Below are positions 16,932-39,424 of a stretch of 64,000 nt of DNA, in pieces. Under the pieces are notes generated by a model. That model was given only the letters and a program-made list of their open reading frames with translations. It was not told the origin of the DNA and searched no databases. Numbering within the stretch: position 1 is the stretch's first letter; each line of letters opens with the position of its first letter. This stretch comes from a virus. The position numbers and the translations under genes are program-made. The DNA is taken from positions 88,209 to 152,208 of IMG/VR virus record IMGVR_UViG_3300049845_000291. One strand, written 5' to 3'.

Positions 16932-18557
16932 TCACGTGGTGTACTGTGTGTCTGAGAACACCTCGTTCGGCGTCAAGCCCTGCAACAGGAGCTGACCAAT
17001 GGACAACCCGTGGTAGTGCGCCGCCACTGACTTCACTGGATCGTTCTTGATGTACTGCGCCAAGCCGATCCAGATCACCGCCAGCCAGAGGTAATGCACC
17101 TCGGTGAAGCGCTCCATGAGCAAAGCACAGCCGCCCAAATCCGGCTTGGGGATCTTGAACTTCATCCCCCAGCTCGCACCGTGAACGCCATTGTGGTCCA
17201 GATGGAACTCACGCGAGTAGTTGAACAGGTCGTACCCGCTGAGCGCGTACGCCAGCTTTGCGATGTCGTACTCTGGTACGCCGTACGTCTTGGTCTGACC
17301 AAAGTACCCGCGTGGATCGATCAGCGTGATCTCCAGCGTGTCGGGATCGATCATGCTGTTCGACATCTGCAGGTCACCATGGATCATGCTCATGGTGTTG
17401 ACGCCTTGGTAGTGCTTGGCGAGCTTCTCATACAGCCCGTTAATGATCTCCAGCGGAGACATGCGTAGGTACAGTCCATTGACGTTCTGAACCGGGCCGA
17501 AGGCATCGATGACGCCAGCAATCTCACGGTACCGATTCAGGAGCTTCTCATGCGCCTCGATCTTGACATCACGCTGCACGATCTCGGTGGTGAACTCTTC
17601 CTTGATGCTGTGCAGCCTATCTGCTTGGTCAAAAAGGCGGCGCAGCACGAGGCGTCTGTTCTCAGCATCAAGGGTCCCCCAGTGCTGCCAGACTGGGACA
17701 CCTTTGACCTTGCTCATCACGAACGAGTCGCGGTCCATCGACACCCAGACCTTTGGCCGGCGGACCAATGTCCGCCGACGGTCGAGTTCCTCGTACCACG
17801 CGATCTCTTTCTTGATGAGCTGCTCGCCTTGGGTGTTCAACGCGCGCTTGAGCACCAGGTCTCCATGGATCTCAACCGAGTTGAACGAACGAGCGGCGTC
17901 GGCCGTTGAGCGAACGCGCTCAAGCTTTGGCTTGTCACCCCAGTCAATGATCGACGGCATGGGGAGCTGGAACACACCGTCCTTGGAGTACTGTGTAAGC
18001 AGCTCGACAAAGTCTTGGCCCTTGGTGTACGGCTTCGGGTGGTACTCAGCCACCGCGTACACACCGAAAAGCCCGCCACGACCGTCCTCTCGCAGCACTG
18101 GGACCTTGTGCTTGACACCGGGTCGATCAGCAAGATCGTATCGGTTTGGGTGATCGTAGTTCGTGAACGCGACGGCCTCGTGCCCAACAAGATCCTCTGG
18201 GCGGAAGTGCTCACCAGGCAGCACATCACACCAGGTGAAGAGCACTGGACTGCCTTCAAGATGCTGGCATGAGCTGAAGATCGCGTGCGCCGAGCCATGC
18301 GCGCCATCGACTGTCACAACATGAAAGGGCAGCTCTGGTTGCGACGCCCCAAAGTACATGTTGTAGTACTCGCGGACCAGCGTCCGGTAGCTGGAGTGCA
18401 CGATCACCGTGATTGAACTGGCGTACTGCGTCCAGTACTCGATCTGCTTGACAAAGCCAGTTTCCTTCCCGATGTTCACGAAGAACTTTGGGATGTGGTT
18501 CGTGAGGGGAGCAAGGCGGCTTCCAAGCCCGCCGGCGACGATGACGACGTTCATCAT
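16932..18557 (-). CDS. Sugar nucleotidyltransferase fused to a sugar/choline-type kinase
   Basis: The 541-residue protein has two domains. Residues 1-230 form a nucleotidyltransferase like those that make NDP-sugars, with GGLGSRLAPLTNHIPK at 9-24 and the metal-binding Asp in TWCDVLPGE near 111. Residues about 240-520 form an aminoglycoside-phosphotransferase or choline-kinase fold, with HGDLQMSN at 393-400 (catalytic Asp and Asn) and IDPRG at 413-417. One chain could therefore phosphorylate a small molecule and activate it with a nucleotide. The start overlaps the stop of the sugar-phosphate isomerase gene (ATGA). Together they suggest synthesis of an activated sugar; substrate and nucleotide are not evident. 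Confidence 0.85.
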   Translation of the reverse strand: MMNVVIVAGGLGSRLAPLTNHIPKFFVNIGKETGFVKQIEYWTQYASSITVIVHSSYRTLVREYYNMYFGASQPELPFHVVTVDGAHGSAHAIFSSCQHLEGSPVLFTWCDVLPGEHFRPEDLVGHEAVAFTNYDHPNRYDLADRPGVKHKVPVLREDGRGGLFGVYAVAEYHPKPYTKGQDFVELLTQYSKDGVFQLPMPSIIDWGDKPKLERVRSTADAARSFNSVEIHGDLVLKRALNTQGEQLIKKEIAWYEELDRRRTLVRRPKVWVSMDRDSFVMSKVKGVPVWQHWGTLDAENRRLVLRRLFDQADRLHSIKEEFTTEIVQRDVKIEAHEKLLNRYREIAGVIDAFGPVQNVNGLYLRMSPLEIINGLYEKLAKHYQGVNTMSMIHGDLQMSNSMIDPDTLEITLIDPRGYFGQTKTYGVPEYDIAKLAYALSGYDLFNYSREFHLDHNGVHGASWGMKFKIPKPDLGGCALLMERFTEVHYLWLAVIWIGLAQYIKNDPVKSVAAHYHGLSIGQLLLQGLTPNEVFSDTQYTT

Positions 18558-19177
18558 GCCACCCCACTTTCGGCCTTGAGCATCGCCCCAAGGGCACCGT
18601 CAGGGTGCAGCTTGAGGAAGTCCATGCGCTGGAAGTTCAGCCCATGCGAAACTTGGACCGCAATGCAGTCCAAGATGCACAGCAACGCGGTGGTGCTGGT
18701 AGTGGGAGCCAGCCCGTGCTCATCGCCCTCGACGACCGCTCCGATGCACAGCTCGCGGTGCACATGCGGATTTCGAGGCTTTGTTGGCTTGCAGTGAATC
18801 AGGATCTGCTTGACGTTCGGTCGAATGACCGTCACGTGCTGGATCGTCTCTAGCATCTCTCGAGTTGTGCCAGAACGCGAGATGTGGATAATCAGATCCT
18901 CATGCCCGATATGACCGTAATCTCCGTGTCCGGTATGGGCGGTGTTTAGGTACAGAGACGGGATACCTAGGCTCGCCATGGTTTCGCTGATTTTGGCAGC
19001 GATGTTGGCGTTCTTGCCAACACCCGTGATGATCACACGAGCTCGATATTCTTTACGGGCCGTCTCGAGGACGTCTTGAACAATTGCTTCGTATTCTGCT
19101 GAAGCAACGACAGGCTTCAGCGCCAAGAGCGCTGAAGCCTGTCGTTCAATGTTTGTAAGAGCTAGACTGTTACCCAT
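18554..19177 (-). CDS. SIS-domain sugar-phosphate isomerase (KdsD/KpsF type)
   Basis: The 207-residue protein is a single SIS domain. GVGKNANIAAKIS (52-64), HGDYGHI (84-90) and SRSGTTREM (100-108) match the phosphosugar-binding loops of D-arabinose-5-phosphate isomerases (KdsD, GutQ, KpsF); the CBS pair of the bacterial enzymes is missing. The likely reaction is ribulose 5-phosphate to arabinose 5-phosphate, though related SIS isomerases use other sugars. Start at 19177 is set by AGGAGG five bases upstream; that ribosome site lies in an inverted repeat. It is coupled to the nucleotidyltransferase/kinase gene downstream. Confidence 0.85.
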   Translation of the reverse strand: MGNSLALTNIERQASALLALKPVVASAEYEAIVQDVLETARKEYRARVIITGVGKNANIAAKISETMASLGIPSLYLNTAHTGHGDYGHIGHEDLIIHISRSGTTREMLETIQHVTVIRPNVKQILIHCKPTKPRNPHVHRELCIGAVVEGDEHGLAPTTSTTALLCILDCIAVQVSHGLNFQRMDFLKLHPDGALGAMLKAESGVA

Positions 19178-19178
19178 G

Positions 19179-19201
19179 TTGCCTCCTAATCTAGGAGGCA
19201 A
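19179..19201 (-). promoter_or_regulatory. Inverted repeat covering the SIS gene ribosome site
   Basis: TTGCCTCCTA-GAT-TAGGAGGCAA on the minus strand is a perfect 10-bp inverted repeat; its second arm contains the AGGAGG ribosome site of the isomerase gene. RNA reading through from upstream would hide the site, whereas RNA from the promoter that overlaps the first arm would lack most of that arm. Confidence 0.6.
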
Positions 19202-19228
19202 TTGTAACCGAGACTAGCTCTCTATCAA
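19201..19228 (-). promoter_or_regulatory. Sigma70-like promoter (TTGATA-N16-TACAAT)
   Basis: On the minus strand TTGATA (19228-19223) and TACAAT (19206-19201) are separated by 16 bases, upstream of the isomerase/activation operon. It is the best -35/-10 pair I found in the window. The CGGTTACAATTG core recurs before the hydroxymethylase gene. Confidence 0.6.
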
Positions 19229-19265
19229 CTCAATTCTCGGATCAAGAAGTGCGAGGACTGGCGCT

Positions 19266-20009
19266 TCATTTGCGCTCGAACCTCGACAAGATGTCCTTCC
19301 TGAACTTTTCCTCGGTGGAGCTCATCCACGACGCAGGCGCCACCCCGTCAGGTTCCAGGTACTCCATGATCGACATGTTGTGCGATCGGTTCAGGTACCA
19401 ACCGGCGGCCAGGTGCTTCGCCTCCTCGATCGCGTCGCCGCCCAACAGGATCGCGAACATCATGATCTCGCGGTTGAAGTGCGAGAGCTGCTCGTGCAGG
19501 TGGTCGCTGAGCTGATGCCAGGCCTCGACGTTGTCGACGCTCGCCAGCACCATGACCGTGTACAGGGTGACCAATCTGGACTGGATGACGGCGGCATTGC
19601 GTTTGGCCTGGCGGAACGCGCCCTCAACTGTGTTGGTCTCCGTTTTGTACGGTTGCTTGGTGCAACCGGCGCCCTTCAGGCGGTCCAGGGCGGCCTTCGG
19701 CATGTCGAAGTACGGGAGCGCGGTGCTCTTCGAGCCGTGAATCAACAGCTCGTCGAGCCACTCGTCGATGAACTGCATGTACGGGTCAGTTTCGTCCTTC
19801 ATGAACTTGGCGGGCCAATCGACCGAATTCATGATGGCATGACCTGAGACTGCGGCCAGCGAGTGCCGAGCCTTGAGCGCGAACTCCGGCAAGTTCCGTC
19901 GACCGACAAGATGCACACCGTTCAGGACGAACTTGAGCGCCTCGGACAGCAGGACGCAGCGGCCGATCAGCACCTGCCGATCGACCTGAGAGTTCAGGTA
20001 CTCGTTCAT
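19266..20009 (-). CDS. Hypothetical protein
   Basis: The 247-residue, mainly helical protein is not recognised. No membrane segment or clear catalytic motif is seen; a His-containing stretch (AWHQLSDHLHEQLSHFNRE) lies near residue 170. It is coupled to the DUF4262-like gene by an ATGA overlap. About 60 bases follow its stop before the isomerase promoter. Confidence 0.5.
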   Translation of the reverse strand: MNEYLNSQVDRQVLIGRCVLLSEALKFVLNGVHLVGRRNLPEFALKARHSLAAVSGHAIMNSVDWPAKFMKDETDPYMQFIDEWLDELLIHGSKSTALPYFDMPKAALDRLKGAGCTKQPYKTETNTVEGAFRQAKRNAAVIQSRLVTLYTVMVLASVDNVEAWHQLSDHLHEQLSHFNREIMMFAILLGGDAIEEAKHLAAGWYLNRSHNMSIMEYLEPDGVAPASWMSSTEEKFRKDILSRFERK

Positions 20010-20464
20010 GCGGCGACCTTGAAGAACAGCGGTTGTCGCGGGTCCATGTACTCGGTGTCGTACTTCTCGTCACCAGGGAAGTTGCCCTCCTTGTCAGGCA
20101 TCACGATCTGCACAACCGGTACCGTGGTGCCGTAGTACTGATCAGCCTGCACGAAGTACTCCGTGCGCATGAGATCCTCGTTCTCGTTCGTGCGCTTGAA
20201 CAGCACGGGGAGATTCGCCCAGCGCTCGTCCGGCAGATCGAACTGCAACGGCCAACCGTCACGGATCTTGGAGGCAACCTCGTTGATGATCACGCACGCC
20301 AGGTCGGGGCGCAGGCCGACGATCATGAGCTCGAAGCCGAAGGCCTTGTCGCTGAACAGCCCGATCGTGTACGCGAACGGGTGCTTGCCATCGGCAACCC
20401 CGATCACCGTGTGCCCGTAGGAGCTGATGTCTTCGAGAATCTTGGCCAAGAGTCGGTCGTGCAT
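20006..20464 (-). CDS. DUF4262-like protein
   Basis: The 152-residue protein contains KHPFAYTIGLFSD near residue 27, then ELMIVGLRPDLACVIINEVA, the pattern of the DUF4262 family found in phages and bacteria. Function of that family is unknown. The start lies two bases after the preceding stop and the stop overlaps the next start. Confidence 0.7.
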   Translation of the reverse strand: MHDRLLAKILEDISSYGHTVIGVADGKHPFAYTIGLFSDKAFGFELMIVGLRPDLACVIINEVASKIRDGWPLQFDLPDERWANLPVLFKRTNENEDLMRTEYFVQADQYYGTTVPVVQIVMPDKEGNFPGDEKYDTEYMDPRQPLFFKVAA

Positions 20465-20466
20465 GA

Positions 20467-20817
20467 TCAGTTCTCCGTCAAAAAGTCGACCAAAAAGTGC
20501 GCGTCATCAGCCGTCAGCATCACCATGTTGCCGCGCGCGGCCTTGGCTAAGCTGATCAAGGTGATGGCGCGCTCGGAACGAAACGCTGACGCCAGCTCAA
20601 TGTGCTTCAGGTCAGAGTTCCCGTTGCTCTTCATCCAGGAGTAGGCCTGCTCCCAGGTCTTGAAGCGGTTGCCGAACAAGGTGATTCGAGTCCCGACCAT
20701 GCTCTCGCACAGCTGTCTGACCTCAACCTCAGCGCTGGCTCGCTCCTCGGCGAGATAACGCTCGCAGGCCGCCCGCAGTCGCTCGGGCTCGATCACGGTG
20801 AAGCTCTTGATTCCCAT
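20467..20817 (-). CDS. Hypothetical protein
   Basis: The 116-residue protein is not recognised. It starts MGIKSFTVIEPERLRAA and is mostly helical, with a basic middle (NRFKTWEQAYSWMKSNG). The ATG overlaps the previous stop (ATGA); longer frames reach into the neighbour and are rejected. Confidence 0.5.
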   Translation of the reverse strand: MGIKSFTVIEPERLRAACERYLAEERASAEVEVRQLCESMVGTRITLFGNRFKTWEQAYSWMKSNGNSDLKHIELASAFRSERAITLISLAKAARGNMVMLTADDAHFLVDFLTEN

Positions 20818-21287
20818 CACGCCAACCTGAAGGACTTGAGGAGCTTGATGAAGCTGTACTCGCTGGAACCTTGACCCCAGTTCCTGTTGGCGGCTGGGTT
20901 GTCGACGTTCACGTGCTCGTACGCCTCCGGAATGTTGGTCAGGCCATCCATGATCGGGCGAACATCGTACAGCTCGGCGGGCACGACCACCGCCACTGCC
21001 GTGGTGGCGCACGCCAAGGACGGTCCATCTTCCTTGAAACGCACGACGGGCAGGGTGAGGGCGTTCTCGGCCAACACCTGCAGAGCGGTGTACAGGCCGT
21101 CCAGCTCCATGCTGTTCCCGCCGTTGCAGATGATGATGGTCTTGTGCTCATACGCCCAGCGCAGCGCCAGCTGTCGCTGGACCGTACGGTCCTCGTACTT
21201 GGTCAACATCTCGGAGACACAGTGCGCGGTCTGCAAACCGAGCTGCAGCTGCGACAGGTAGTAATTGGTGAAGGAGTACAGGCGCAT
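20817..21287 (-). CDS. Hypothetical protein, weakly like peptidyl-tRNA hydrolase 2
   Basis: The 156-residue protein starts MRLYSFTNYYLSQLQLG. The order of a QTAHCVSEML helix, a central TIIICNGGNS strand-loop and a VVRFKEDGPSLACATTAVAV segment is reminiscent of Pth2-type folds, but the match is weak and catalytic residues cannot be assigned. The ATG overlaps the stop of the membrane-protein gene. Confidence 0.45.
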   Translation of the reverse strand: MRLYSFTNYYLSQLQLGLQTAHCVSEMLTKYEDRTVQRQLALRWAYEHKTIIICNGGNSMELDGLYTALQVLAENALTLPVVRFKEDGPSLACATTAVAVVVPAELYDVRPIMDGLTNIPEAYEHVNVDNPAANRNWGQGSSEYSFIKLLKSFRLA

Positions 21288-21736
21288 CACTTGTCCAGTT
21301 GTTGTTTCAAAGCTCGCTCTTGAATCTTTTGACGTTCGATCTTTTCCCACATGTCGGCGCAGTCGCTTTGGGTTTGCTTGATGTCGCCGACCGTGATTGG
21401 TCGTTGCCATTGCGCGGCACGGCGCACGATCGTGTTGTCAAAGCACGAGTCGGCCAGACGGGCTGCACGAATCTCCTCAGGCGTCGCATCACGTGTGAGA
21501 TGCCAGTTCCACATGAAAATGGAACCAAAGAAGAACACGATGACCTGTAAAATGGTGCCGCCCCAGAAACCGTCACTGCTCTTGTTCGCAAAGGTTCTAA
21601 ACCAAGCGCGATAGAACCAGAAGACCCAGACCGGCGGCAGCAGGTACATGATGAAAGTTAGCACCTTCGTGATGACCAGCATCAGCCGCCTGGATCGTCT
21701 GATCCAGAGACGCTGGGTTGCAATCGACATCGACAT
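21287..21736 (-). CDS. Membrane protein
   Basis: The 149-residue protein begins MSMSIATQRLWIRRSRR. Two hydrophobic segments (about residues 19-40 and 58-75) are followed by a soluble C-terminal helix rich in Gln, Lys and Glu. A basic N terminus suggests N-in topology. It overlaps the neighbouring 60-residue membrane protein gene by one base, so the two may work together at the inner membrane. Confidence 0.5.
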   Translation of the reverse strand: MSMSIATQRLWIRRSRRLMLVITKVLTFIMYLLPPVWVFWFYRAWFRTFANKSSDGFWGGTILQVIVFFFGSIFMWNWHLTRDATPEEIRAARLADSCFDNTIVRRAAQWQRPITVGDIKQTQSDCADMWEKIERQKIQERALKQQLDK

Positions 21737-21918
21737 CACTTGTCCTTGAAGAACTTCGTGCCAAGCAGCGCGTTCACGGCAATCGATGCCACGATGATCA
21801 CGAAGGCCACCAGTGCGCCAAGGAGCATTCCATGTACAGGTCGACCGAAGACCAAGCCGGCCACACCGGTCAGCACCATCCAAAGGACAACGAAGGCGGT
21901 GATGAACGTGCGGTTCAC
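21736..21918 (-). CDS. Small two-segment membrane protein
   Basis: The 60-residue protein starts at GTG and has two hydrophobic segments (residues 5-24 and 31-52) and a basic C terminus (KFFKDK). Size and coupling with the next membrane gene resemble phage envelope-acting pairs, but no lysis role can be claimed. Confidence 0.45.
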   Translation of the reverse strand: MNRTFITAFVVLWMVLTGVAGLVFGRPVHGMLLGALVAFVIIVASIAVNALLGTKFFKDK

Positions 21919-21919
21919 A

Positions 21920-23634: not shown

Positions 23635-23674
23635 GAGTGGGCGAAGAATACAGGCATTAGGTGACAAATAGCGT

Positions 23675-29463: not shown

Positions 29464-30129
29464 GAGCACGATGTACTTTGCGGTCTTGTCGCCTCGAGCC
29501 AGCAGCGCGGCGAAGCGGTGGTACCCGTCAATCAGACGCGGCGAGCCGTCAGGGCGGCGGTGAACAACGCCGACGGGAATTCCCGCCGCGAACTCGTACT
29601 GCGTGCCGCGTTTGGCGCGCATGTACTCATCATTCCCCACGAGCCCATCGAGTGCCAGTTCTTCGATCTCGACGTTCTTGCACTCGTTGATCACGTCGAG
29701 CACGAAGGAGTACTCAGCCTCCAGGACCTTGCGGATCTTTTGGAGGTCGCTCTCCAGGTTCAAGATCTCGTTGATTGCTGGCAACAGGTCGTGTGCACCC
29801 TCAAAGGTGATGTCGTCGATCTCTTCGCCGTAGTACCCACCCGTCACGGAGATGGAGAACTTTTCTGGCTCGTACGCCTTGTGCAGACGGAGCAGACGGT
29901 CGATGCAGTACATCTCAATCGTGCTGGCCGTGTCATGCACGAAACGGAGGCGCTTTCCTCCAGTCTGCTTTTGGACCTCGATCAGCCCCTCAAGATTTAC
30001 TGAGGTGGTGCGCAGGTTCTCGTACCGACCACAGCGACAGATCGAGTCACAACCAGCTTCTTCGCAGTTCGTCACGTACTCATAGTCGTACTCGACCGCG
30101 TACCGGGCCTGAAGGGACGCCAACCTCAT
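29458..30129 (-). CDS. Protein with C-terminal ParB/Srx-like motif
   Basis: In the 223-residue protein the C terminus carries IPVGVVHRRPDGSPRLIDGYHRFAAL in two parts, with the LIDGYHRFAAL box typical of ParB/sulfiredoxin-like domains (nucleotide binding or nuclease). The N terminus has a four-Cys cluster (CEEAGC ... CRCG) that may bind zinc. The middle is helical (LNLESDLQKIRKVLE). Exact activity unknown. The ATG overlaps the stop of the deoxyribosyltransferase-like gene. Confidence 0.6.
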   Translation of the reverse strand: MRLASLQARYAVEYDYEYVTNCEEAGCDSICRCGRYENLRTTSVNLEGLIEVQKQTGGKRLRFVHDTASTIEMYCIDRLLRLHKAYEPEKFSISVTGGYYGEEIDDITFEGAHDLLPAINEILNLESDLQKIRKVLEAEYSFVLDVINECKNVEIEELALDGLVGNDEYMRAKRGTQYEFAAGIPVGVVHRRPDGSPRLIDGYHRFAALLARGDKTAKYIVLS

Positions 30130-30605
30130 CGAATTCCCCTTGGATGCAGCATGATGGCCTTGATTCGCTCGATGCCAAGATCAAGATCATCAAAGAGCTC
30201 CAGATGTTGGAACATCGAGCACAGCACCTGGACATTCCCGCGCCGCCAAAAGCCAGGTGGGCAGACCACCACCGTCCGTACCCCAACGCCAGCCAGAAGC
30301 CCAAGCTCCAGCAGTGAGATCGGTGATTGGGTGCCAGGCTGCAAGTACATCAGCACTGCCGTGCTGGTGCGAATGTAGTCCAGCTCCCACCGCACCTGGG
30401 TCTCAAACTCCTTGTTTGTGATGTCTTGGACCCATGACGCGTTCCACACCGGCCGGCGAGGATTCAAGACCGTGCAGTCAAGATCTGCTAGCTCGCTGAT
30501 GACGCGTGCTTGCCAGTCTACAGCTAGGCCCTGTTCAATCGAACCGGCCAAGAACACAGCCGGCGGCGACACCGCGCCGCGCTCTGGAGCGACTAGGACC
30601 TTCAT
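30126..30605 (-). CDS. Nucleoside 2-deoxyribosyltransferase-like protein
   Basis: The 159-residue protein has VFLAGSIEQG (17-26), VLNPRR (46-51), TQVRWEL near 69-75 and SPISLLELGLLAG (94-106), which together define the nucleoside deoxyribosyltransferase-like family related to SLOG/TIR-type nucleotide-processing folds. The Glu in LLELGL corresponds to the usual nucleophile region. Possible jobs are base exchange on deoxynucleosides or cleavage of a modified nucleotide; the family also includes uncharacterised phage members. Confidence 0.75.
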   Translation of the reverse strand: MKVLVAPERGAVSPPAVFLAGSIEQGLAVDWQARVISELADLDCTVLNPRRPVWNASWVQDITNKEFETQVRWELDYIRTSTAVLMYLQPGTQSPISLLELGLLAGVGVRTVVVCPPGFWRRGNVQVLCSMFQHLELFDDLDLGIERIKAIMLHPRGIR

Positions 30606-30883: not shown

Positions 30884-31104
30884 GATGACCTCACTTGACT
30901 TTGTTCAACGATTTGAAGGAGCGCCTTCAGCCGCTCCGCGAACTGACCAATCTCTTCAGGATTGATCGACCAGCGTTGTGTTTGCAGCACGATGTACGGA
31001 CCGCCTCCTGCATCGGCGATCTCAACGTGCAGCTCATGAATAGGTTCATTGCTGCAGCTGTCAGGATCTTGCGTCAGCAGGAACTTGGCACCATCTATCC
31101 TCAT
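30880..31104 (-). CDS. Small hypothetical protein
   Basis: The 74-residue acidic protein is not recognised: two or three strands (IHELHVEIADAGGGPYIVL) then one helix (EEIGQFAERLKALLQIVE). Coupled on both sides by ATGA overlaps. Confidence 0.5.
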   Translation of the reverse strand: MRIDGAKFLLTQDPDSCSNEPIHELHVEIADAGGGPYIVLQTQRWSINPEEIGQFAERLKALLQIVEQSQVRSS

Positions 31105-31778
31105 CGATAGATCTCCGAACGGTTGTTGCGGATCACAACAACCTGCTGGAAATCAGTGAGCGCCTTGTCCAGGTCTTCACCTGAGAGGACCCCGTCCCAG
31201 ATCATGCCATTGCCCCAGCCCCGTTCCTCATCGAGGACTGATTTGAGACGCTTGTTGTTGGTGTCGACTATCTTGCGAATCCTGGCCGTGAGCGACCGCA
31301 TGGAGCACTCCCCGAGCTCCCCGTAGATCGCGCGAATGATCTCTTGAGAGGTGCGATCGGTCAGCCGCTGAAGCCTGACCGGTTCAGGTGTGCTCACGTA
31401 CAACGTCACCATCTGCCAGCCCTTGGAGCCACAGTACTTGCGGTAGATCTCAAGGCCATTGGGCTCCAAGATCACGATTGGGGGAGGAAGACCGGGTGCC
31501 AGCTTCGACTCCATCTCCTTGTGTGTCACCCCGTACCGCACACCGTTGAAGGTCACCAGCTCGGCAAAGAGCCCCTCAGCCTCCATTTCACGAGAGCGAT
31601 CGGTCGTGATGAAGAAGTAATCAACGCCTTCACGCTCATCGACACGAGGCATGCGGTCCGTTGTGCTGACGATTCGTTCACACCCAAGCTTCGTGACCAG
31701 CGCCTCAAGGAGGTAGCTCTTTCCAGAGCAAGTTGGTGCGGTGATCGTGATTAGGGTCGGGTACTTGAATTTGATCAT
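31101..31778 (-). CDS. Guanylate-kinase-like nucleotide kinase
   Basis: The 225-residue protein has the P-loop APTCSGKS at 14-21, STTDRMPRVDEREGVDYFF at 38-56 (the GMP-binding region of Gmk) and LVTFNGVRYGVT near 75-86. The family phosphorylates GMP or dGMP. The C-terminal half is longer and diverges from bacterial Gmk, so substrate choice may differ. Such a kinase would feed phage DNA synthesis. A CACGAGG ribosome site precedes the start; an AACAAT box overlapping the previous stop may be its promoter. Confidence 0.83.
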   Translation of the reverse strand: MIKFKYPTLITITAPTCSGKSYLLEALVTKLGCERIVSTTDRMPRVDEREGVDYFFITTDRSREMEAEGLFAELVTFNGVRYGVTHKEMESKLAPGLPPPIVILEPNGLEIYRKYCGSKGWQMVTLYVSTPEPVRLQRLTDRTSQEIIRAIYGELGECSMRSLTARIRKIVDTNNKRLKSVLDEERGWGNGMIWDGVLSGEDLDKALTDFQQVVVIRNNRSEIYR

Positions 31779-31807
31779 AGACAGCCTCGTGAGTACATGA
31801 TGAATTG

Positions 31808-32290: not shown

Positions 32291-32550
32291 CAGTCGTACT
32301 CGTGCAGCTCTTCATCTTCGTCGTCGCCACCGCGCATCGCGCTCTTGATCTCGGCATCAGACATCGGCTGGAAGCCAACGACGGTGCCGCAATCTAGGCA
32401 GATCTCCATGTCAATGTAGTCACCGCCACAGACACCAGTGATGTCAGGCGGATAGTCGTCGCGCTCGAGCCGCAGGTGCGGCACAGACGTGAAGCACAGG
32501 TCGTTGACCTTGCCGTTGATGCTCAGAACTCGGGTGTGGTTGCAGGCCAT
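32290..32550 (-). CDS. Small protein with zinc-ribbon-like C terminus
   Basis: The 86-residue protein has a Cys near residue 3, a CGGD segment and CLDCGTVVGF near 52-61, suggesting one zinc site. The C terminus is very acidic (DDEDEELHEYD). The start overlaps the end of the glucosyltransferase gene by 28 bases in another frame. Function unknown. Confidence 0.6.
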   Translation of the reverse strand: MACNHTRVLSINGKVNDLCFTSVPHLRLERDDYPPDITGVCGGDYIDMEICLDCGTVVGFQPMSDAEIKSAMRGGDDEDEELHEYD

Positions 32551-33668
32551 TTGAAGGTGCTCAGGGTGTTGACGAAGTTCTCGCAGAACTGAACTGGATC
32601 CCAGCCAAGGGCCAGCCGCTGTTCCTCGATGATGGTTTGACGGGTCTCCGGCGAGCTCTTGATCAACCGTAGCAGGTCAACCAGCATCGCCTGGTCCCTG
32701 ACGTACAGATACTCATGCGCCGCGGTGCCTTTCGGGTAGATCCGTCGGCTCTTGTCGATGTTGGCGTCGATGAACACGATGTTCCCAGCGGCGATGCACT
32801 CGGCAACGCGCTGTGGAATCAGATCGAGGCTCTCGTACGATGGGTCACCAGTCACCAGATGCGCCAGCGCGCCTTGCATCTTTGGCAGTACGTCGCCGTA
32901 CTTCACCATACCAGTGAACTGCGGGTACCGCTTGACAGGAAGCTTGCCGATCTTCGGATGCTTCTCGAAGTCGGTCTCGTCGATCTTACCGAAGATCTCA
33001 ACGCTGATGTCGTCTGGCAGACCACAGTACCACTTGTACAGGTTTGGGATGCGCCGGCCGCCGCGTGCGGTTCCGCCGTACATCAGGTCAACGGTGGGGT
33101 GCTCAGCAGGCGGCAGCCACGGGTTGAGCAGCGGGAATCGATCCATTGGGTAGTGCACGATCTGCCCAAGGGGGACGCCTTTCTTTGGCCAGTCCGCCTT
33201 CACGGCGAGCAGCGCGTACGGTTGCGAGACCAAGTGGATCGGCTTCTGGATCAGGATCTCGTCTTTGGTGTACTTCGTGCCCCACGGCTTCTTCTCGACG
33301 TTCTCCCAGATCTGAACGAACGGCAGCTCCGGATCACACATCAAGTACACCACCGGGCCAGTGAACGTGTTGATCAGCCGGTAGTTCGCGATCTGCTCGG
33401 CGTCCTCAGCGCCACCGAAGAAGTTCACGTTCCCGTTGATGACGCACAACACATCCAGCTGCTGCAGCACCGATGGATCTGTCTCCATGATCTGGTGCCA
33501 GTGCAGGCTCTCGTGCAGAGTGTCCTTCTTCAGGATTTTGGTGAACACGTGCACCTCAGCGCCACCATTTCGCAGGGCCTTGCAGATGCTGATGGCCTCA
33601 CCCGAGGTCACTGAGTTGTCAAGGTCCCACAGAATGCGGGCACCCAGCTTCAAAACACCGATCTTCAT
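32523..33668 (-). CDS. DNA beta-glucosyltransferase homologue (T4 BGT-like)
   Basis: The 381-residue glycosyltransferase parallels T4 beta-glucosyltransferase along its length. VNFFGG (81-86), CDPELPF (111-117; Asp112 fits the T4 catalytic Asp100), YTKDEILIQKPIHLVSQ (133-149), YGGTARGGRR (197-206), VTGDPSY near 272 and PQRVAE near 285 all have counterparts in the T4 enzyme, which moves glucose from UDP-glucose to 5-hydroxymethylcytosine in DNA. The sugar used here cannot be told from sequence. It overlaps the dNMP-kinase-like gene by one base, and a hydroxymethylase lies 4.7 kb away in the same orientation. Confidence 0.88.
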   Translation of the reverse strand: MKIGVLKLGARILWDLDNSVTSGEAISICKALRNGGAEVHVFTKILKKDTLHESLHWHQIMETDPSVLQQLDVLCVINGNVNFFGGAEDAEQIANYRLINTFTGPVVYLMCDPELPFVQIWENVEKKPWGTKYTKDEILIQKPIHLVSQPYALLAVKADWPKKGVPLGQIVHYPMDRFPLLNPWLPPAEHPTVDLMYGGTARGGRRIPNLYKWYCGLPDDISVEIFGKIDETDFEKHPKIGKLPVKRYPQFTGMVKYGDVLPKMQGALAHLVTGDPSYESLDLIPQRVAECIAAGNIVFIDANIDKSRRIYPKGTAAHEYLYVRDQAMLVDLLRLIKSSPETRQTIIEEQRLALGWDPVQFCENFVNTLSTFKWPATTPEF

Positions 33669-34267
33669 CAGTTCTCCAGGGCCTCAGCAATGATGTCTTC
33701 TTTGCGGCGGAAACCACCAACGCCGCGATCAGTGACACACACGACGCGCTTGTCGCGGATGATCGAGCTCTCGAAGGCCGCCATGAACAGCTCTTGCTCT
33801 TTCTCGCGCTTCGTGATGTCAAAGGACTCGCCATCATCAACGAAATGCGATGAGACCGAGAAGTCCTCAGTCAACAGGATCAGCCGGATGCTGCCAACCT
33901 CATGCAACCGGAAGGCCCGCTCGAGCTCAAACACGTACGCGCCGTCATACCCACGGTACAGCGGTGCGTACACGTTCTCACCGAGATGCGCTCGGTTGCA
34001 GATCATGTGCGCGTACGGGGCCGAGGACAGCATCGTGAACAGGTTCCTGAACGAGCGTTCCTGGTACTCGCGCAGGGCGTACATGCGCTCCTCGGTCTCG
34101 TTCAGGTTCTGACGATGGTACGGACCACCAAGATAGCAGCTCAGGACCTTGGGCTTCGAGAAATGCAGGACCTCGTGGTACCCACGCTTGTGCAGGATCC
34201 CGTCAATCAGGGTGTCCTTGCCAAGACGGTCCAGGCCCTCAATCAGGTACTTGTTCACGACACTCAT
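33668..34267 (-). CDS. Deoxynucleoside monophosphate kinase-like protein
   Basis: The 199-residue P-loop kinase has GLDRLGKDTL at 11-20, the thymidylate-kinase form of Walker A, and CNRAHLGENVYAPLYRG near 90-106, resembling the DR(Y/H) region of thymidylate kinases. Placement directly upstream of the DNA glycosyltransferase gene suggests that it may phosphorylate the modified deoxycytidylate, as T4 gene 1 kinase does. That specificity is inference. Confidence 0.75.
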   Translation of the reverse strand: MSVVNKYLIEGLDRLGKDTLIDGILHKRGYHEVLHFSKPKVLSCYLGGPYHRQNLNETEERMYALREYQERSFRNLFTMLSSAPYAHMICNRAHLGENVYAPLYRGYDGAYVFELERAFRLHEVGSIRLILLTEDFSVSSHFVDDGESFDITKREKEQELFMAAFESSIIRDKRVVCVTDRGVGGFRRKEDIIAEALEN

Positions 34268-34560
34268 GGGATGGTGATCTCCAGAAAGTTATGAGACACG
34301 CGGTCGATGCGGTTCCCGTTTGCGTCCATGATCTCGACGTGGAAGTCGACCGTGTCACATGCCGCCAGCATGAACTTGTCGTCTCTGATGTTCTCGATCT
34401 TATCAATGAGCTGGAACGCTGCTTCCCGGTACTTGTTCCCACGCCCAAGACGAATGCAGCACACCAGCGCCGAGATCAACTCAAGCTCCTCAACCGAGAG
34501 GGCATGCAGCGACAGCGTGCCCTCTTCCTCATCGGGCCTGGAGCTGATGACCCGAGTCAT
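34264..34560 (-). CDS. Hypothetical protein
   Basis: The 98-residue protein is not recognised. It starts MTRVISSRPDEEEG one base after the ATPase stop. Helices in the first half (VEELELISALVCCIRLGRG) lead into a beta-rich end (VDFHVEIMDANGN). It stands in the kinase/glycosyltransferase operon. Confidence 0.5.
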   Translation of the reverse strand: MTRVISSRPDEEEGTLSLHALSVEELELISALVCCIRLGRGNKYREAAFQLIDKIENIRDDKFMLAACDTVDFHVEIMDANGNRIDRVSHNFLEITIP

Positions 34561-34561
34561 G

Positions 34562-35722
34562 TCAGAAGCCGATTTTCCTGGTACGACGCTGCACGCTGAC
34601 GCGCTGACCGAAGATCTCAGCCAACGTGAACTCCGAGCCATCACGCAGGTCGATGCCAACGTCCGACGCCACGTTCAAGGCCTCAGCGCGAGTCATTGGC
34701 CGGAACTCGACCACATCGAAGCAACGACCCGGACGCATGAGCGCCTCGTCGATGTCACGGATCGACGGCAGGTTCGTGCTGAACACGAGCTTCTTGCCTT
34801 CAGCGCTGATCAGACCATCAGACACGTTCAGGAACCGGTGCATCATCGTGTTCCCATCAGTGCGCGCCTTGAGGAACGTGTCTGCGTCCTCCATGATCAT
34901 GAACCTGGTATCGCTCTCGATGAAGTTCGCGAAGATCCCGTCGCTGTTCATGACGCGCTCATCGTACGTGACCTTGGCATCGCCACCTGAGCGGTGGATC
35001 AGGTTCTTGATGAAGGTCGTCTTGCCGGTGCCAGGCGGGCCGATCAAGATCAGCACACTGGCCGAGCTGTTCAGGTACTCGTCGATGTACTCGGGCAGCG
35101 GCTTCGGCAGCCACGGGTACGCCGAGTTGATCGCCGGGCGGAAGTTCAGCGGCACGTTGATGCTGTTTCCGCGCTCGTTGTACACCCACTCGATCAGGTT
35201 CTCGGCACGCTTGTACATGCCGTCCATGCGCTCAACGAAGGCCTTGACCTCCTTTGGGTCGCCGTTGAGCTCCAGATCAAGCTTGCCACGCTGCAGGGCA
35301 GCCTCAACCATGCCCCAAGGGAACAGCATGACCGCACGGTTTGGCGAGAAGAAGTTGTACCGCTCCGTCAGGTCGGTGACCCAGTCACGAAGCTGGATCG
35401 TGACATCGATCATCCATGTACCCTCTTGCGCCAAGGTGTTACGGTTGTTCTCGAGCGAGCTCCGCATGAACGAGGAAGCCAGCCACTCATCCGGACCGTA
35501 CGCGCCAAAGATCACGCCGGTGTCGATGTTGTTTTCATTCATGAGATGTGCATCATCCATGCAGGTGTCAAGATGGTCTCTATTGATCAGAGGACGTTCA
35601 CGTTTGATTCGACGACGGCGCTTATCAACGCGTCTGACAGCCTGTAAACCTGTGGTTTTAGTGCTTCGCCTGATTCGACCGAGATCAACTGGGTCGAGGT
35701 CGATGTCATCATCGTCATCCAT
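34562..35722 (-). CDS. AAA+ ATPase
   Basis: The 386-residue protein has Walker A GPPGTGKTT (228-236), Walker B FMIMEDAD (274-281), sensor 1 STN (315-317) and an arginine-finger-like MRPGR (329-333), the pattern of classic AAA ATPases of the BCS1/SpoVK type. The first 220 residues are a phage-specific domain with a highly acidic start (MDDDDDIDLD) and a basic patch (KRRRRIKRE). Such ATPases are common in T4-like phages of unknown remodelling function. TACAAT lies six bases before the ATG. Confidence 0.87.
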   Translation of the reverse strand: MDDDDDIDLDPVDLGRIRRSTKTTGLQAVRRVDKRRRRIKRERPLINRDHLDTCMDDAHLMNENNIDTGVIFGAYGPDEWLASSFMRSSLENNRNTLAQEGTWMIDVTIQLRDWVTDLTERYNFFSPNRAVMLFPWGMVEAALQRGKLDLELNGDPKEVKAFVERMDGMYKRAENLIEWVYNERGNSINVPLNFRPAINSAYPWLPKPLPEYIDEYLNSSASVLILIGPPGTGKTTFIKNLIHRSGGDAKVTYDERVMNSDGIFANFIESDTRFMIMEDADTFLKARTDGNTMMHRFLNVSDGLISAEGKKLVFSTNLPSIRDIDEALMRPGRCFDVVEFRPMTRAEALNVASDVGIDLRDGSEFTLAEIFGQRVSVQRRTRKIGF

Positions 35723-35728
35723 TTGAGC

Positions 35729-35734
35729 ATTGTA
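35729..35734 (-). promoter_or_regulatory. Promoter -10 box (TACAAT) six bases from ATPase start
   Basis: GTACAATGCTCAA then ATG on the minus strand, matching the box at 29423 over 12 bases. A weak -35 (TTCCAG) is 16 bases upstream. It would drive the ATPase, kinase, glycosyltransferase and UDG-like genes. Confidence 0.55.
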
Positions 35735-35763
35735 CGCGATCGACTTTGTTCTGGAACTTGAAT

Positions 35764-37503
35764 TTAGGTTCCAAGCATGGACACAAACCGGGTATCGAAC
35801 TCGTCACTCCACTCGTTATTCTTTGCTGTCCACAAGCGTTGGATGTTTGTGTCCAGGAAGTACGTGGTGGCCCAGTCCTCAGGCGACCGAACCGAGCGAC
35901 CAGCGCCCTGGACCAGCTTCATGGTGCACAGCAGGTTGTAGATGTCTGGCCATTTGTCGAGGATCTCTTTCATGCGCGCTTCACCCAGCGATCCAAATGG
36001 GGCCTTGACGATGATCTGGTACCTGCTCAGATCACCAGCAAGGTCAAGGCCCTCAAAGCCACTTGGCGTCAGCAGGATCGCCGGGCCCTTGTGGTTCTTG
36101 AAGGTCTGCAGTACGTCGGCCAGCTTCTGGCCACGCTGGTGCTCAACGAGCCGGGTGTTGAGCCCCATGCCTTGGAGCATCTGCGCGATGCCCTCGGTCA
36201 GCGCAAACGACGGCGCCAGCACGATGCCGCGCTCGCCCTTGTCCGTGTGGTGCTTTGCGATCTCATACACCGTGGCTTGAAGCTTCTTGACGACTGATGG
36301 CTCCTTGAGTGTGCTGTAGCTCAGGTTCTGCGGCTTGTAGAACAGGACCTTCTTGTTCTCACGTGGAAAGGTCGGTGGCAGGCGCACGTGCTTAGCATTA
36401 TCGAGGGTCAGCGTGCGACGCGCGTACTGCTCGCTGAGCGTGGCGCTCATCAGCAGGTTGTACCGAGCGTTGATCAGGTTCTCGAACATGTCGCCAACGA
36501 AGATCGGCTTGACGCTGACCTCGTGCTCGTGCTGCCCGTATTTTGGCTCCTTCGGCTTGTACTCGAAGGCGTGCGGGTACCCGTACTCGATCAGGTCGTT
36601 GATCTTGCACCCGAGGCCATGGTACTTCTTGGACAGCCGAGACAGCTCTAGGTACTTCTTCTGGTTGTGGATCGCCCTTTCGGCTTGGTTTCGCGCGGCC
36701 TCATGAACTTGGCCGTACGCATCAGCCAAGGCCATCAGGTGCTGCATGTAATTGTCACGTGTGATGTCACCCGAGATCAGATCGCCGGCCACGTTCCGCA
36801 GGATCTTGAAGACCTCGGTGCTGCCAAGGGTCAACGTCTGGTTGATCTCCTCCGCCATCTTCTTGAGCCGAGAGTCGCTGAAGTAGATCGCGTTGTGCTC
36901 AGTGAACAGGTCGTTCAGCATGTGTGCTTCATCGAACACGCACACCGTGCGAGCCGGAAGCATCTGCGTGAACATCCGGTCGATGAAGTAATAGGAATAG
37001 TTCGTGATCAGGTGCCGAGCCTTGTCACGCATCCGCTTCTGGAGCGCGAAATCGCAGCCGTCACAGAAGATCTTGATCTGCTCATCCATACCCTCCTTCT
37101 GGAACAGACGGAGGGCACAGACCTCAGCGGTCTGAACCTCAGATGGCGTGCTCAGGGCGGCGCACTCGAAGTTCCCAGCGCCCTTGAACATCCTGAACCG
37201 GGTATCAAGCGGATCACGTCCTTCTTGGAAGGTCCGATGGTACTGCTCACTGAGCACGTTCGTCGGTGTCAACAAGAAGCTGGCGCCGACGTGGGCATCT
37301 GGGTGGTGCAGTCGATGCAGTGCCTCGGCAACCACCGCGCCGATGATGGACTTGCCAGTGCCAGTTGGCGCTGATAGGATCACGGTCTTGTGTCCCTCAT
37401 CGAGGAACGACGTCAGGATGGTGTTGATGTCCTGCACCTGTCTTCCGCGCGGCTTGTACCCGACCGCGTCATAGGCCTCAATGATTTGCTTTTCGTATTT
37501 CAT
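35764..37503 (-). CDS. XPD/DinG-like superfamily 2 helicase
   Basis: The 579-residue DNA helicase has motif I APTGTGKS (45-52), DEAH box VFDEAHML (189-196), LMSATLSE as motif III, and QGAGRSVRS as motif VI near the C terminus. Between motifs I and II are Cys114, Cys129, Cys147 and Cys150, placed as in the iron-sulfur domain of XPD and DinG. Probable 5'-to-3' helicase in phage DNA repair or recombination. The start overlaps the small upstream gene by one base. Confidence 0.9.
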   Translation of the reverse strand: MKYEKQIIEAYDAVGYKPRGRQVQDINTILTSFLDEGHKTVILSAPTGTGKSIIGAVVAEALHRLHHPDAHVGASFLLTPTNVLSEQYHRTFQEGRDPLDTRFRMFKGAGNFECAALSTPSEVQTAEVCALRLFQKEGMDEQIKIFCDGCDFALQKRMRDKARHLITNYSYYFIDRMFTQMLPARTVCVFDEAHMLNDLFTEHNAIYFSDSRLKKMAEEINQTLTLGSTEVFKILRNVAGDLISGDITRDNYMQHLMALADAYGQVHEAARNQAERAIHNQKKYLELSRLSKKYHGLGCKINDLIEYGYPHAFEYKPKEPKYGQHEHEVSVKPIFVGDMFENLINARYNLLMSATLSEQYARRTLTLDNAKHVRLPPTFPRENKKVLFYKPQNLSYSTLKEPSVVKKLQATVYEIAKHHTDKGERGIVLAPSFALTEGIAQMLQGMGLNTRLVEHQRGQKLADVLQTFKNHKGPAILLTPSGFEGLDLAGDLSRYQIIVKAPFGSLGEARMKEILDKWPDIYNLLCTMKLVQGAGRSVRSPEDWATTYFLDTNIQRLWTAKNNEWSDEFDTRFVSMLGT

Positions 37504-37742
37504 CAGATGGCCCGAATTTCGGCGATGAAGGTGTCAGCCCCAGTGTCGCCACTAAAGAGCCATTCTACCTCCTTCATCACCAGTGCCATTTCACGCGCGC
37601 GGCTCACGATCACCTCGAGTTCCTCGAGCACCTCAGGGCCGAAGTCCTGAACCCACTCCTTGTCGCCACGTAGGTCGCGTTCCAGCTCGTCTGCGAACTG
37701 GTGCACGCGCATGTACGCGTAATCAAAGTGCCCACCGCTCAT
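37503..37742 (-). CDS. Small conserved-type phage protein (MSGGHFDY)
   Basis: The 79-residue protein begins MSGGHFDYAYMRVHQFADE, an opening recurrent among small phage and bacterial proteins of unknown function. It is acidic and mostly helical. The ATG at 37742 has AAGGGG nine bases upstream; a longer frame from 37769 is less likely. Confidence 0.6.
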   Translation of the reverse strand: MSGGHFDYAYMRVHQFADELERDLRGDKEWVQDFGPEVLEELEVIVSRAREMALVMKEVEWLFSGDTGADTFIAEIRAI

Positions 37743-37756
37743 GAAAGCCCCTTGTG

Positions 37757-37763
37757 CTAAATA
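37757..37763 (+). promoter_or_regulatory. Late-type promoter box (GCTAAATAGG)
   Basis: CTAAATA followed 13 bases later by the ATG of the homing endonuclease. It is the same box as before the fibre genes, so the endonuclease is probably made late and from its own promoter. Confidence 0.55.
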
Positions 37764-37776
37764 GGCCATAATCTAT

Positions 37777-38460
37777 ATGACCGTCACTATGAACCACTAC
37801 ACCTATTGTATTGTTTTCCCAGCTATTCCACGACTTTATATCGGGGTTAGGTCTTACAATGGCCCGCCAACTCAGGACGACTACCGCTCTTCATCGAAGA
37901 AAGTGAAGGCTCTCATCAAGGAAGGTTTTCAATATACCATCTCCATAATCGCCACACACGCCACTCGTGCAGAAGCAGAGGCTGAAGAGATTGCTCTCCA
38001 TGATATTTTCGATGTTGCGCGTAATCCATATTTCCTGAATGGCGCCAAGGCCAGACATGGAGGCTTCACACGCGCTGGGGTTCCTTCTGATCAGAAAGGC
38101 CGAACTTATGAGGAACTCTTCGGCATCGAAGAGGCGGCGCGTAAGAGACTCAACTTACAGCAAAAGTTGAGGAACAGGGTCTTCTCGAAAAAGACTAAGG
38201 CCAAAATGGCTGCCTCACACGCAGATGTATCAGGCCCACTAAACCCTCGTGCTATTTCTGGAGCCTTGGAACTTTCTGGCAAGATCCTTTTGGAATATCA
38301 GACAAAAGCTGAACTTGTTCGGTGGTGCCTTGACAATGATGTTCCGCACCGCCCTATCCTAAGGCTTAGGACAGGCGATGCTTATCTGCCCAACATCACC
38401 CCGCGTAATGCGAAGTTCAAGCGTTGGTTTGGTCTTCGTGTTCTGGAACCCCAAAGATAA
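37777..38460 (+). CDS. GIY-YIG homing endonuclease (Seg-like)
   Basis: The 227-residue protein has the GIY-YIG nuclease start (YTYCIVF ... LYIGVRS), then SSSKKVKALIKEG and a helix with AEAEEIALHD, as in T4 Seg proteins. The C-terminal half contains KKTKAKMAASH, a NUMOD3-type DNA-binding repeat. The gene is on the plus strand inside a minus-strand block, has visibly higher A/T than its neighbours and overlaps the 3' end of the hydroxymethylase gene by 44 bases. It is a free-standing mobile endonuclease; a second ATG at 37789 is possible. Confidence 0.9.
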   Translation: MTVTMNHYTYCIVFPAIPRLYIGVRSYNGPPTQDDYRSSSKKVKALIKEGFQYTISIIATHATRAEAEAEEIALHDIFDVARNPYFLNGAKARHGGFTRAGVPSDQKGRTYEELFGIEEAARKRLNLQQKLRNRVFSKKTKAKMAASHADVSGPLNPRAISGALELSGKILLEYQTKAELVRWCLDNDVPHRPILRLRTGDAYLPNITPRNAKFKRWFGLRVLEPQR

Positions 38461-39424
38461 CGTGCATGGCTTCATCACGTTCACCAAAACACATTAGCAC
38501 GAGATTCTGCCAATAAGGTGTAAGCAATTCCCATGCGCCAACGTCCTCAAACGCGAAATCCTTGCTGGCACCGGCAGCCTGCCAAGCAGCTTCAATTCCA
38601 ACAAGCCCCGTGAGAATTTCATCTGAAAAAACGTCCATCTTGATCATCGGCATCTCAAGTGCGCGTTCGTCTTTGATGATGGCCTCAGCCATAGAAAAAT
38701 GGCGCGAGTAAATGTGCATCGAGCCAGCGTTGTGGTAGTACACGCCAAGCTCCAGATCAGGCCAGTGCCGACGAAGCTCGAGCATCATGGCCTCCTGCAG
38801 CATGGTGAACTGGAAGACATCGTTCGTGAACCCGAGGATGATGTCGTTCGATCGCATGTTCACGATCAGGTGCAGCCGGTTCTCACGAATCAACCACTGC
38901 AGCGTGAAGGTGCAGGGCACGTCCTTGTTGCCCACGTGCCGATCACTCGGCACGTGGATGCTCATCACGGCTTGACGGGTGTCCTTGTCGCGGGCCAGGG
39001 CCAGGATGGTCTCCTGCCACTGGTTGATGGGCTCAGGCTTGGACAGCGTGCTGGCTTTGGTGCTGAATGCAGGCAGCTTACTGTGTCCGAACAGCCGGGT
39101 GCCGTAGTTCGAGTTCACGGTACCGGCGGGATAGAGCTCATTGTCACCTAGGTTCCGAATGCCGTCCCAGAACTTGGCGTACGGCAGAATGCCGGCTGGG
39201 TCGTTTGAGCCGCTGATGTACCAGATGAACTCGCCAAGCAAGTACTTCAGGCTGGTCTTGCGGTCGGCATAGTTGATGATCCGATTTCGTGGATCACCGA
39301 GCGTGATGTTGTAGTTCAGGAGCTCCTTCGTCGTGGTGCCCCGTGGGTGCGATTCCATACCGTGATGCATCAGATGCATCAGGCAGGTGCGAAAGTCATG
39401 ATTGAGTTGGTTGTTTTGCTGCAT
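38417..39424 (-). CDS. 42: Deoxycytidylate hydroxymethylase-like (T4 gp42 type)
   Basis: The 335-residue member of the thymidylate synthase superfamily carries the nucleophile Cys171 in DVPCTFTLQW, VNMRSNDIILGF (188-199) and SMHIYSRH (235-242), all close to T4 gp42. Where thymidylate synthases have Asn (FNIA), this protein has Asp202 in GFTND, the residue that gives gp42 its dCMP preference. It should therefore add a hydroxymethyl group to dCMP using methylene-tetrahydrofolate. It is longer than gp42 (246). A GAGG site precedes the start and a GGTTACAATTG promoter box lies 26 bases further up. Confidence 0.88.
   Translation of the reverse strand: MQQNNQLNHDFRTCLMHLMHHGMESHPRGTTTKELLNYNITLGDPRNRIINYADRKTSLKYLLGEFIWYISGSNDPAGILPYAKFWDGIRNLGDNELYPAGTVNSNYGTRLFGHSKLPAFSTKASTLSKPEPINQWQETILALARDKDTRQAVMSIHVPSDRHVGNKDVPCTFTLQWLIRENRLHLIVNMRSNDIILGFTNDVFQFTMLQEAMMLELRRHWPDLELGVYYHNAGSMHIYSRHFSMAEAIIKDERALEMPMIKMDVFSDEILTGLVGIEAAWQAAGASKDFAFEDVGAWELLTPYWQNLVLMCFGERDEAMHVIFGVPEHEDQTNA

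Follow-up and report, generated by a model that had tools for sequence, protein, structure and literature searches.

The window analysed here is a stretch of 64,000 nucleotides (G000:C1:88209-152208) from a single virus record of 152,208 bases, IMGVR_UViG_3300049845_000291, hereafter G000. G000 is probably a partial genome, since four of its relatives measure 311-343 kb. A first-pass annotation of the window had assigned five genes to a pathway for glycosylated hydroxymethylcytosine (hmC) in DNA, perhaps with a sugar other than glucose. Its coordinates hold for all five open reading frames, which lie open on the minus strand, each with an ATG start and a TGA stop. Four of its assignments, the gp42-like hydroxymethylase, the BGT-family glycosyltransferase, the SIS isomerase and the nucleotidyltransferase/kinase fusion, are corroborated by Pfam, PHROG and PDB sequence matches. 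The fifth, a deoxynucleoside monophosphate (dNMP) kinase-like gene, does have a P-loop, and its family assignment is weak. These genes and two further ones that bear on the pathway are as follows.

38417-39424, minus strand: gp42-type deoxycytidine monophosphate (dCMP) 5-hydroxymethylase, thymidylate synthase superfamily
33668-34267, minus strand: P-loop nucleotide kinase, thymidylate-kinase-like, proposed kinase of hydroxymethyl-dCMP (hmdCMP)
32523-33668, minus strand: BGT-family DNA glycosyltransferase
18554-19177, minus strand: single-domain SIS isomerase, D-arabinose-5-phosphate isomerase type
16932-18557, minus strand: bifunctional protein, sugar-phosphate nucleotidyltransferase (N-terminal) and APH-type kinase (C-terminal), here called the fusion
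31101-31778, minus strand: guanylate-kinase-like gene, possible second dNMP kinase
6094-7026, minus strand: ordinary thymidylate synthase

The arrangement is operon-like, with an overlap of 4 bases (ATGA) between the SIS and fusion genes and of 1 base (TGATG) between the kinase and BGT genes. Early genes, including topoisomerase and helicases, surround the SIS and fusion pair. The BGT, hydroxymethylase, kinase, SIS and fusion genes were found again, on one strand, in three related records (G001, G004 and G005), which argues that the gene set is not a chance assembly.

The co-occurrence of BGT and fusion was surveyed in 46 records, comprising the IMG/VR matches of the BGT and fusion scans together with LR756500 and G000. 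The fusion is present in 31 records, the BGT in 21 and both in six: G000 (152 kb), G001 (332 kb), G004 (336 kb), G005 (311 kb), G009 (343 kb) and G024 (190 kb). All six belong to one jumbo-phage clade, and their BGT and fusion genes are 8-14 kb apart. The fusion-only records G002, G003 and G025 (114, 7 and 27 kb) are fragments with fusions 45-59% identical to that of the window. No fusion was found in the BGT phages T4, Muldoon and vipetofem. Among GenBank phages, the BGT occurs in 119 records (40 rows and 60 spread rows viewed), the fusion in 369 (60 viewed) and the SIS in 272 (60 viewed); co-occurrence was tested on representatives only, and a GenBank phage with both BGT and fusion may still exist. 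At the level of titles and passages, no description of the combination of BGT, SIS and fusion was found in the literature, where Mahler 2025 and Lee 2025 may treat it. The combination suggests a DNA coating that has yet to be described, glycosylated modified cytosine itself being a known kind of base.

The hydroxymethylase matches PF00303 (3e-24; 86 bits against a cut-off of 24.3), confirming that it belongs to the thymidylate synthase fold family, and its best PDB sequence matches are the CMP hydroxymethylase MilA (2.5e-24) and T4 dCMP hydroxymethylase (2e-15). Its motif MRSNDIILGFTND has an Asp where T4 has Asp179 and thymidylate synthase an Asn, and its VPCT holds the catalytic Cys; together these form the signature of T4 gp42. 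By comparison with E. coli thymidylate synthase, the first Asp of the motif is presumably folate-binding. The phage encodes a normal thymidylate synthase elsewhere, at 6094-7026 (PF00303 1.9e-89; PPCH and FLGLPFN motifs), so the gp42-like gene cannot simply be taken for that enzyme. According to a passage of PMC5175136, Asp179 has been proposed as the cytosine-selecting residue of T4 gp42, and Cys148 is catalytic.

The motif was compared in an alignment of 50 thymidylate synthase family sequences (48 loci, the window hydroxymethylase and the ordinary thymidylate synthase of the window). MRS[NQ]D...G...D is present in all 23 aligned BGT-phage rows (20 distinct), the window and T4 among them. 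It was also found in the BGT phages G024 and G010, giving 25/25 BGT-phage rows in total and covering all 21 BGT records of the 46-record set, including the six that also have the fusion. In 25/25 rows (21 distinct) of phages with the fusion but without BGT, the first Asp is replaced by Asn and the Gly by Val (motif MRS[QE]N). Phage G (L004, no BGT match) has the D-type motif and was left out of both counts, and the clade fragments G002, G003 and G025 yielded no row. The MRS[QE]N motif of the RB69-type 5-hydroxy-dCMP (hodCMP) synthase is not that of the window enzyme. Neither a hodCMP-synthase-type enzyme, nor RB69-type transferases, nor the RB69-type HAD gene was found in G000 (a 152 kb fragment) or in G001, G004 and G005 (311-336 kb). 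Since the window enzyme groups by motif with gp42 and not with the phages that have the fusion without BGT, it is predicted to make hmdCMP, and so the base hmC.

The base named by the first-pass annotation thus agrees with the motif, but the precedent that it cited, arabinosyl-hmC in RB69, does not hold. RB69 had been assigned this base in a portion of PMC6024577, and a passage of PMC13390438 calls that assignment erroneous. The same passage places the arabinose of RB69-type phages on 5-hydroxycytosine, made by a thymidylate synthase superfamily enzyme unlike gp42, so that the RB69 base is arabinosyl-5-hydroxycytosine.

The BGT matches PF09198 (4.6e-26; 91.9 bits against a cut-off of 27), phrog_7922 (3.9e-49) and the sequence of the T4 BGT structure (1.8e-34, residues 1-350). 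It keeps T4 Glu22, Asp100, Arg191, Arg195, Asp258, Tyr261, Arg269 and Glu272, which we take to have active-site or catalytic roles. By these matches it is firmly a genuine member of the T4 beta-glucosyltransferase family. At twelve positions, the six clade BGTs have one residue in common that none of the other 17 shows. One of these is the site of T4 Ile256, which lies two residues ahead of Asp258 and is Thr in 6/6 clade BGTs and in 0/17 others; this Thr is a candidate for donor choice. Profile searches over all stretches of G000, G001, G004 and G005 found no RB69 ORF003c, Acj61_079/RB69_047-046, UDP-galactopyranose mutase or ba-gt. Among the 15 records searched with PF00534, the clade members covered gave matches in G001 and G005 alone, both below cut-off; the GT-A families (PF00535) lay outside the search. 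Among the families searched, the BGT is the only DNA-glycosyltransferase candidate common to the clade.

The SIS protein matches PF01380 (2.2e-10) and phrog_5670 "arabinose 5-phosphate isomerase" (2e-72), and shares 52% identity with RB69ORF055c; a 215-residue frame starting with TTG at 19201 was used for the Pfam, PHROG and GenBank-phage comparisons. It also matches KdsD (2XHZ; 5.8e-17). Alignments to 3ETN, 5UQI and 2XHZ place a Lys (KdsD Lys59), two Glu and a C-terminal His in the window protein, all presumably catalytic. The fusion contains an NTP_transferase domain (PF00483, residues 4-119) and an APH domain (PF01636, residues 220-437), both over cut-off, and matches phrog_4098 (6.9e-107). 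In its predicted model (pLDDT 83.9), the N-terminal domain resembles RmlA, UDP-glucose pyrophosphorylase, GlmU and HddC (at a Z of about 19-20, with about 215 residues aligned at a root-mean-square deviation of mostly about 3 A), and MurU ranks second among the Foldseek matches; the fold results barely covered the kinase half. Because this domain resembles sugar nucleotidyltransferases, the model would fit an order in which a C1 kinase acts before the nucleotidyltransferase. Identity to GenBank-phage homologues reaches 52% for the SIS and 36% for the fusion among the matches listed. Sequence comparison supports the SIS and fusion as homologues of RB69 ORF055c and ORF053_052c, proposed there to make activated arabinose, which fits the sugar-activation role first suggested for the KdsD-type SIS and the fusion. 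Arabinose is present in the DNA of RB69 and its relative NP, as stated in parts of PMC6024577 and PMC13390438.

The gene content around the fusion differs between groups. In T4-like phages, HAD and Acj61_079-type genes lie beside the fusion in 25/25 rows, and the SIS within the stretch in 18/25 (duplicates included). The jumbo clade fusion loci have the SIS in 9/9, the HAD in 0/9 and the Acj61_079-type gene in 0/9. Of 399 bacterial and archaeal fusion stretches, 352 were confirmed; 80 were retained for examination, some of these loci being cut by contig ends. The SIS is present in 44 of these 80 loci, as a separate frame in 35 (25 with a gap of <200 bp) and in frame with the fusion in nine, and the phage-type HAD in 0/80. 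The SIS and fusion can therefore stand as a two-gene module, since both the jumbo clade and bacterial/archaeal loci pair them without HAD. A quickly built fusion tree of 48 rows sets apart jumbo (9), T4-like (23) and bacterial/archaeal (16) rows; it carries a warning of long branches meeting and was not built upon.

Some variants of the cassette were seen elsewhere. Seven T4-like phages (L107-L111, L113 and L114) have the fusion, the HAD and the Acj61_079-type gene with no SIS within the stretch, and a host isomerase may suffice in them. The SIS frame runs into a GIY-YIG-like domain (by eye) at L016:451-1608 and L017:8599-9798, and probably at L093:5600-6802 (by length only). In the window, 20817-21410 was considered as a second sugar isomerase (GmhA-like by eye), which Pfam and PHROG did not support (PTH2 0.12; phrog_3668 "hydrolase"). 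An ORF003c-type transferase was rejected as a universal partner of the fusion, being present in only 2/18 records. The 047/046 (A2) family is commoner (4/15 records, including the BGT phage Muldoon at 3.5e-21) and occurs in 25/25 fusion-without-BGT rows and in two BGT phages (L083 and L084).

The kinase at 33668-34267 has the thymidylate-kinase-like P-loop EGLDRLGKDT, with weak matches to Pfam Thymidylate_kin (0.12) and phrog_761 (0.008). T4 gp1 as query matched neither this gene nor any other part of G000. The predicted model of the kinase (pLDDT 53.6, from two sequences) is too poor for fold comparison. Its homologues in relatives lie near the hydroxymethylase, most of them also near the BGT. 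The guanylate-kinase-like gene (PF00625 1.2e-12) belongs to the same cluster, and its homologues lie near the BGT or the fusion in the clade, L078 and L087. A third kinase, in the same record outside the window (L008:12864-13451), matches phrog_2107 (3.2e-10) and phrog_139 "deoxynucleoside monophosphate kinase" (0.00043).

The closest BGTs outside the clade belong to records that yielded no fusion but have a CofD-HAD fusion gene in the BGT locus. This gene encodes about 550-650 residues (CofD = PF01933) and is mostly accompanied by a MobA/IspD-like nucleotidyltransferase, with a GmhA-like SIS between the two in L082. Such CofD-HAD genes (with the NTP_transf_3/IspD-like partner) lie near the BGT at L077:12601-15272, L078:11861-14537, L079:11107-13044, L080:9589-11841, L082:11116-14241 and L087:2265-6081; in L079 the CofD gene is present and the nucleotidyltransferase was undetected at 1e-5. 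The phages with the CofD cassette possibly carry a further hmC adduct. G010 (345 kb) has the CofD pair and no SIS or fusion was found in it; over all stretches of G000, G001, G004 and G005 the reverse holds, and in G009 and G024 the cassettes were checked at the loci.

In the BGT tree (23 rows, 22 distinct), the six rows with SIS and fusion form one clade (support 100/100). It nests in a 13-row clade (100/99) whose other seven rows have CofD-HAD, six of the seven also with the nucleotidyltransferase. This nesting suggests that the donors are phage-made and exchangeable. All 13 rows of this jumbo BGT subclade have one of the two cassettes and none was seen with both. The simplest reading of this topology would be one replacement of the CofD cassette by SIS and fusion; the nesting branch has a support of 93/91, below the program's star, and the CofD rows need two changes on the tree. 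As one tree event, the swap gives no statistical proof of a functional link. L092 and L018, which duplicate parts of L074 and L076, are not in the tree, nor are L002 (= L087) and L052 (same phage as L086); the BGTs of L080 and L081 are identical. In L050 (AB1I1M-1) the CofD-HAD model matched a 249-residue gene annotated as hydrolase, and this row received the label "none". Where the NTP3 model hit the fusion itself (in G000, and in L074, whose end is cut off) or RB69 ORF053, no CofD cassette was scored.

In Lactobacillus phage ATCCB (L053:5162-7392), a UDP-galactopyranose mutase gene lies directly after the BGT gene, whose product is a long branch in the tree. This is a third case of a sugar-nucleotide gene close to a BGT, and it suggests a galactofuranosyl donor in ATCCB.

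Taken together, these data make it very probable that the phage makes hmC and glycosylates it. For a pentose donor of the phage's own making, arabinose being the likeliest, the chances are about even, as they are for DNA containing pentosyl-hmC, probably arabinosyl-hmC. For the suggested non-glucose sugar, the comparison of cassettes among relatives lends support; which sugar it is, we infer. In the proposed pathway, the gp42-type enzyme would convert dCMP to hmdCMP, as its family membership and diagnostic residues indicate. One or both small kinases would then carry hmdCMP towards hmdCTP for insertion by the polymerase, as suggested by their position and weak similarity. By homology to the RB69 cassette, the SIS would turn ribulose 5-phosphate into arabinose 5-phosphate, and the fusion would phosphorylate the sugar at C1 and then activate it to NDP-arabinose. 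The BGT relative would finally transfer the sugar onto hmC in DNA, again by family membership and diagnostic residues. The cassette is joined to the BGT in this scheme because cassettes appear to have been exchanged within the BGT lineage. More tentatively, and somewhat short of probable, the jumbo BGTs may be a platform with exchangeable phage-encoded donor cassettes, on which the clade swapped CofD-HAD and nucleotidyltransferase for the arabinose cassette and makes true arabinosyl-hmC, its sisters making another hmC adduct via CofD.

The gene set combines features of several known systems. Like T4 (gp42, b-gt), the window has a gp42-type hydroxymethylase and a BGT-family transferase with conserved catalytic residues, whereas the phage adds its own sugar isomerase and activation enzyme and shows no gp1 or gp56 match. 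It shares a homologous SIS (52%) and nucleotidyltransferase-kinase fusion (ORF055c, ORF053_052c) with the arabinosylation module of RB69 and other Mosigvirus phages, but differs in the base-making enzyme and in having a BGT, with the HAD, ORF003c and 047/046 genes not found. Shewanella phage Thanatos encodes TH1_060, a homologue of RB69 ORF053_052c of the fusion type; in contrast to the pathway proposed here, a part of PMC12838424 describes a deoxypentose on an oxygen at cytosine C5 and a separate UDP-xylose pyrophosphorylase, TH1_063. The jumbo phages with BGT and CofD-HAD (LR756500, G010 and the fragments L078-L082) have the closest BGTs, the D-type hydroxymethylase motif and the kinase homologue, but another activation cassette in place of SIS and fusion.

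Several observations weigh against arabinosyl-hmC as the product. The cassette is distant from the BGT (8-14 kb), whereas the CofD cassette begins within about 1.5 kb of it in 6/7 rows, and the link between BGT and cassette that the tree suggests could be coincidence. Of the seven CofD records, five are partial (19-109 kb) and may contain an overlooked fusion. The RB69-type HAD phosphatase was not found in the nine jumbo fusion loci or in G000, G001, G004 and G005, so that conversion of arabinose 5-phosphate into arabinose 1-phosphate would be incomplete or host-aided. The SIS scores far below the curated NCBIfam kpsF and KdsD cut-offs (102.7/203.7 and 95.9/505 bits); both models describe longer proteins (268-328 positions). 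A query with T4 gp56 gave no dCTPase match in G000, G001, G004 and G005, no family search having been made. G001 and G005 each have one extra GT-B gene, below the Pfam cut-off and unrelated by eye. Finally, the conserved residues of the BGT include those of T4, whose BGT takes glucose from host UDP-glucose, so that the donor could also be glucose.

This last point leads to the main rival, which we regard as possible but rather unlikely: a T4-like route in which the BGT adds glucose derived from host UDP-glucose to hmC, and SIS and fusion serve a second sugar on top or another molecule. It would account for the T4 active-site residues compared, all of which are kept, for the existence of BGT phages that yielded no fusion (such as T4, Muldoon and vipetofem), and for the separation of cassette and BGT. 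It is harder to reconcile with two observations: the searches, which left out G009, G024 and the GT-A families, found no other glycosyltransferase shared by the clade, and all 13 jumbo BGT subclade rows have one of two cassettes, none having been seen with both. A second rival is that SIS and fusion have nothing to do with DNA and make an activated sugar destined for the host envelope or for a protein of the virion. The pair is widespread in bacteria and archaea, where surface glycans are its likely use, and the SIS family takes in a capsule enzyme as well as KdsD, but the phage homologues examined lie in DNA-modification modules, the pair sits amid early genes, and the BGT is the only clade-wide glycosyltransferase that the same searches found; we consider this rival improbable. 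An RB69-type product, arabinosyl-5-hydroxycytosine, is very improbable, for despite the homologous SIS and fusion the hodCMP-synthase-type motif is absent, 6/6 clade records have the gp42-type enzyme, and G000, G001, G004 and G005 yielded no RB69-type HAD, transferase (047/046, ORF003c) or U32 gene.

If arabinosyl-hmC or another pentosyl-hmC is indeed the product, it would add a base once attributed to RB69 and since retracted, and BGT-type enzymes would not need to rely on host UDP-glucose. The thymidylate synthase family motif and the cassette type would then form a simple genomic rule predicting phage cytosine chemistry. The restriction, CRISPR and glycosylase defences that a phage faces depend on such bases, and a BGT with another donor would be useful as an hmC labelling enzyme.

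U32 genes (PF01136) occur in RB69-type modules at L003:10920-12325 and L054:4894-6302, and in Entb_45 the gene adjoins an annotated chorismate mutase. The U32 proteins RlhA and TrhP make 5-hydroxypyrimidines in RNA with the use of prephenate, and U32 proteins may help make 5-hydroxycytosine in RB69-type phages. As a general marker of hydroxycytosine phages the U32 gene was rejected, occurring in 4/18 records (Acj61 and PspYZU05 not among them) and in 12/25 fusion-without-BGT rows.

Other genes of the window have putative roles in nucleic acid metabolism or in the virion. An RNA 2'-phosphotransferase of the Tpt1/KptA type (7026-7544; PF01885 6.3e-45) adjoins the thymidylate synthase, and a macro domain at 5076-5555 scores below cut-off (0.00055). 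A nucleoside deoxyribosyltransferase-like gene is located at 30126-30605 (PF15891 9.7e-30). An Fpg/MutM-like DNA glycosylase is encoded at 15226-16245 (PF01149 7e-18, PF06831 1.6e-09); in L015 and L017-L020 its homologues lie close to the cassette. Just 3' of the fusion in G005, L018:12041-12667 encodes a protein of 208 residues with HTD...H...R, 2-oxoglutarate dioxygenase-like by eye and with no Pfam match. The gene at 46889-56977 encodes a 3,362-residue protein with PHROG matches to tail-fibre and head-decoration proteins.

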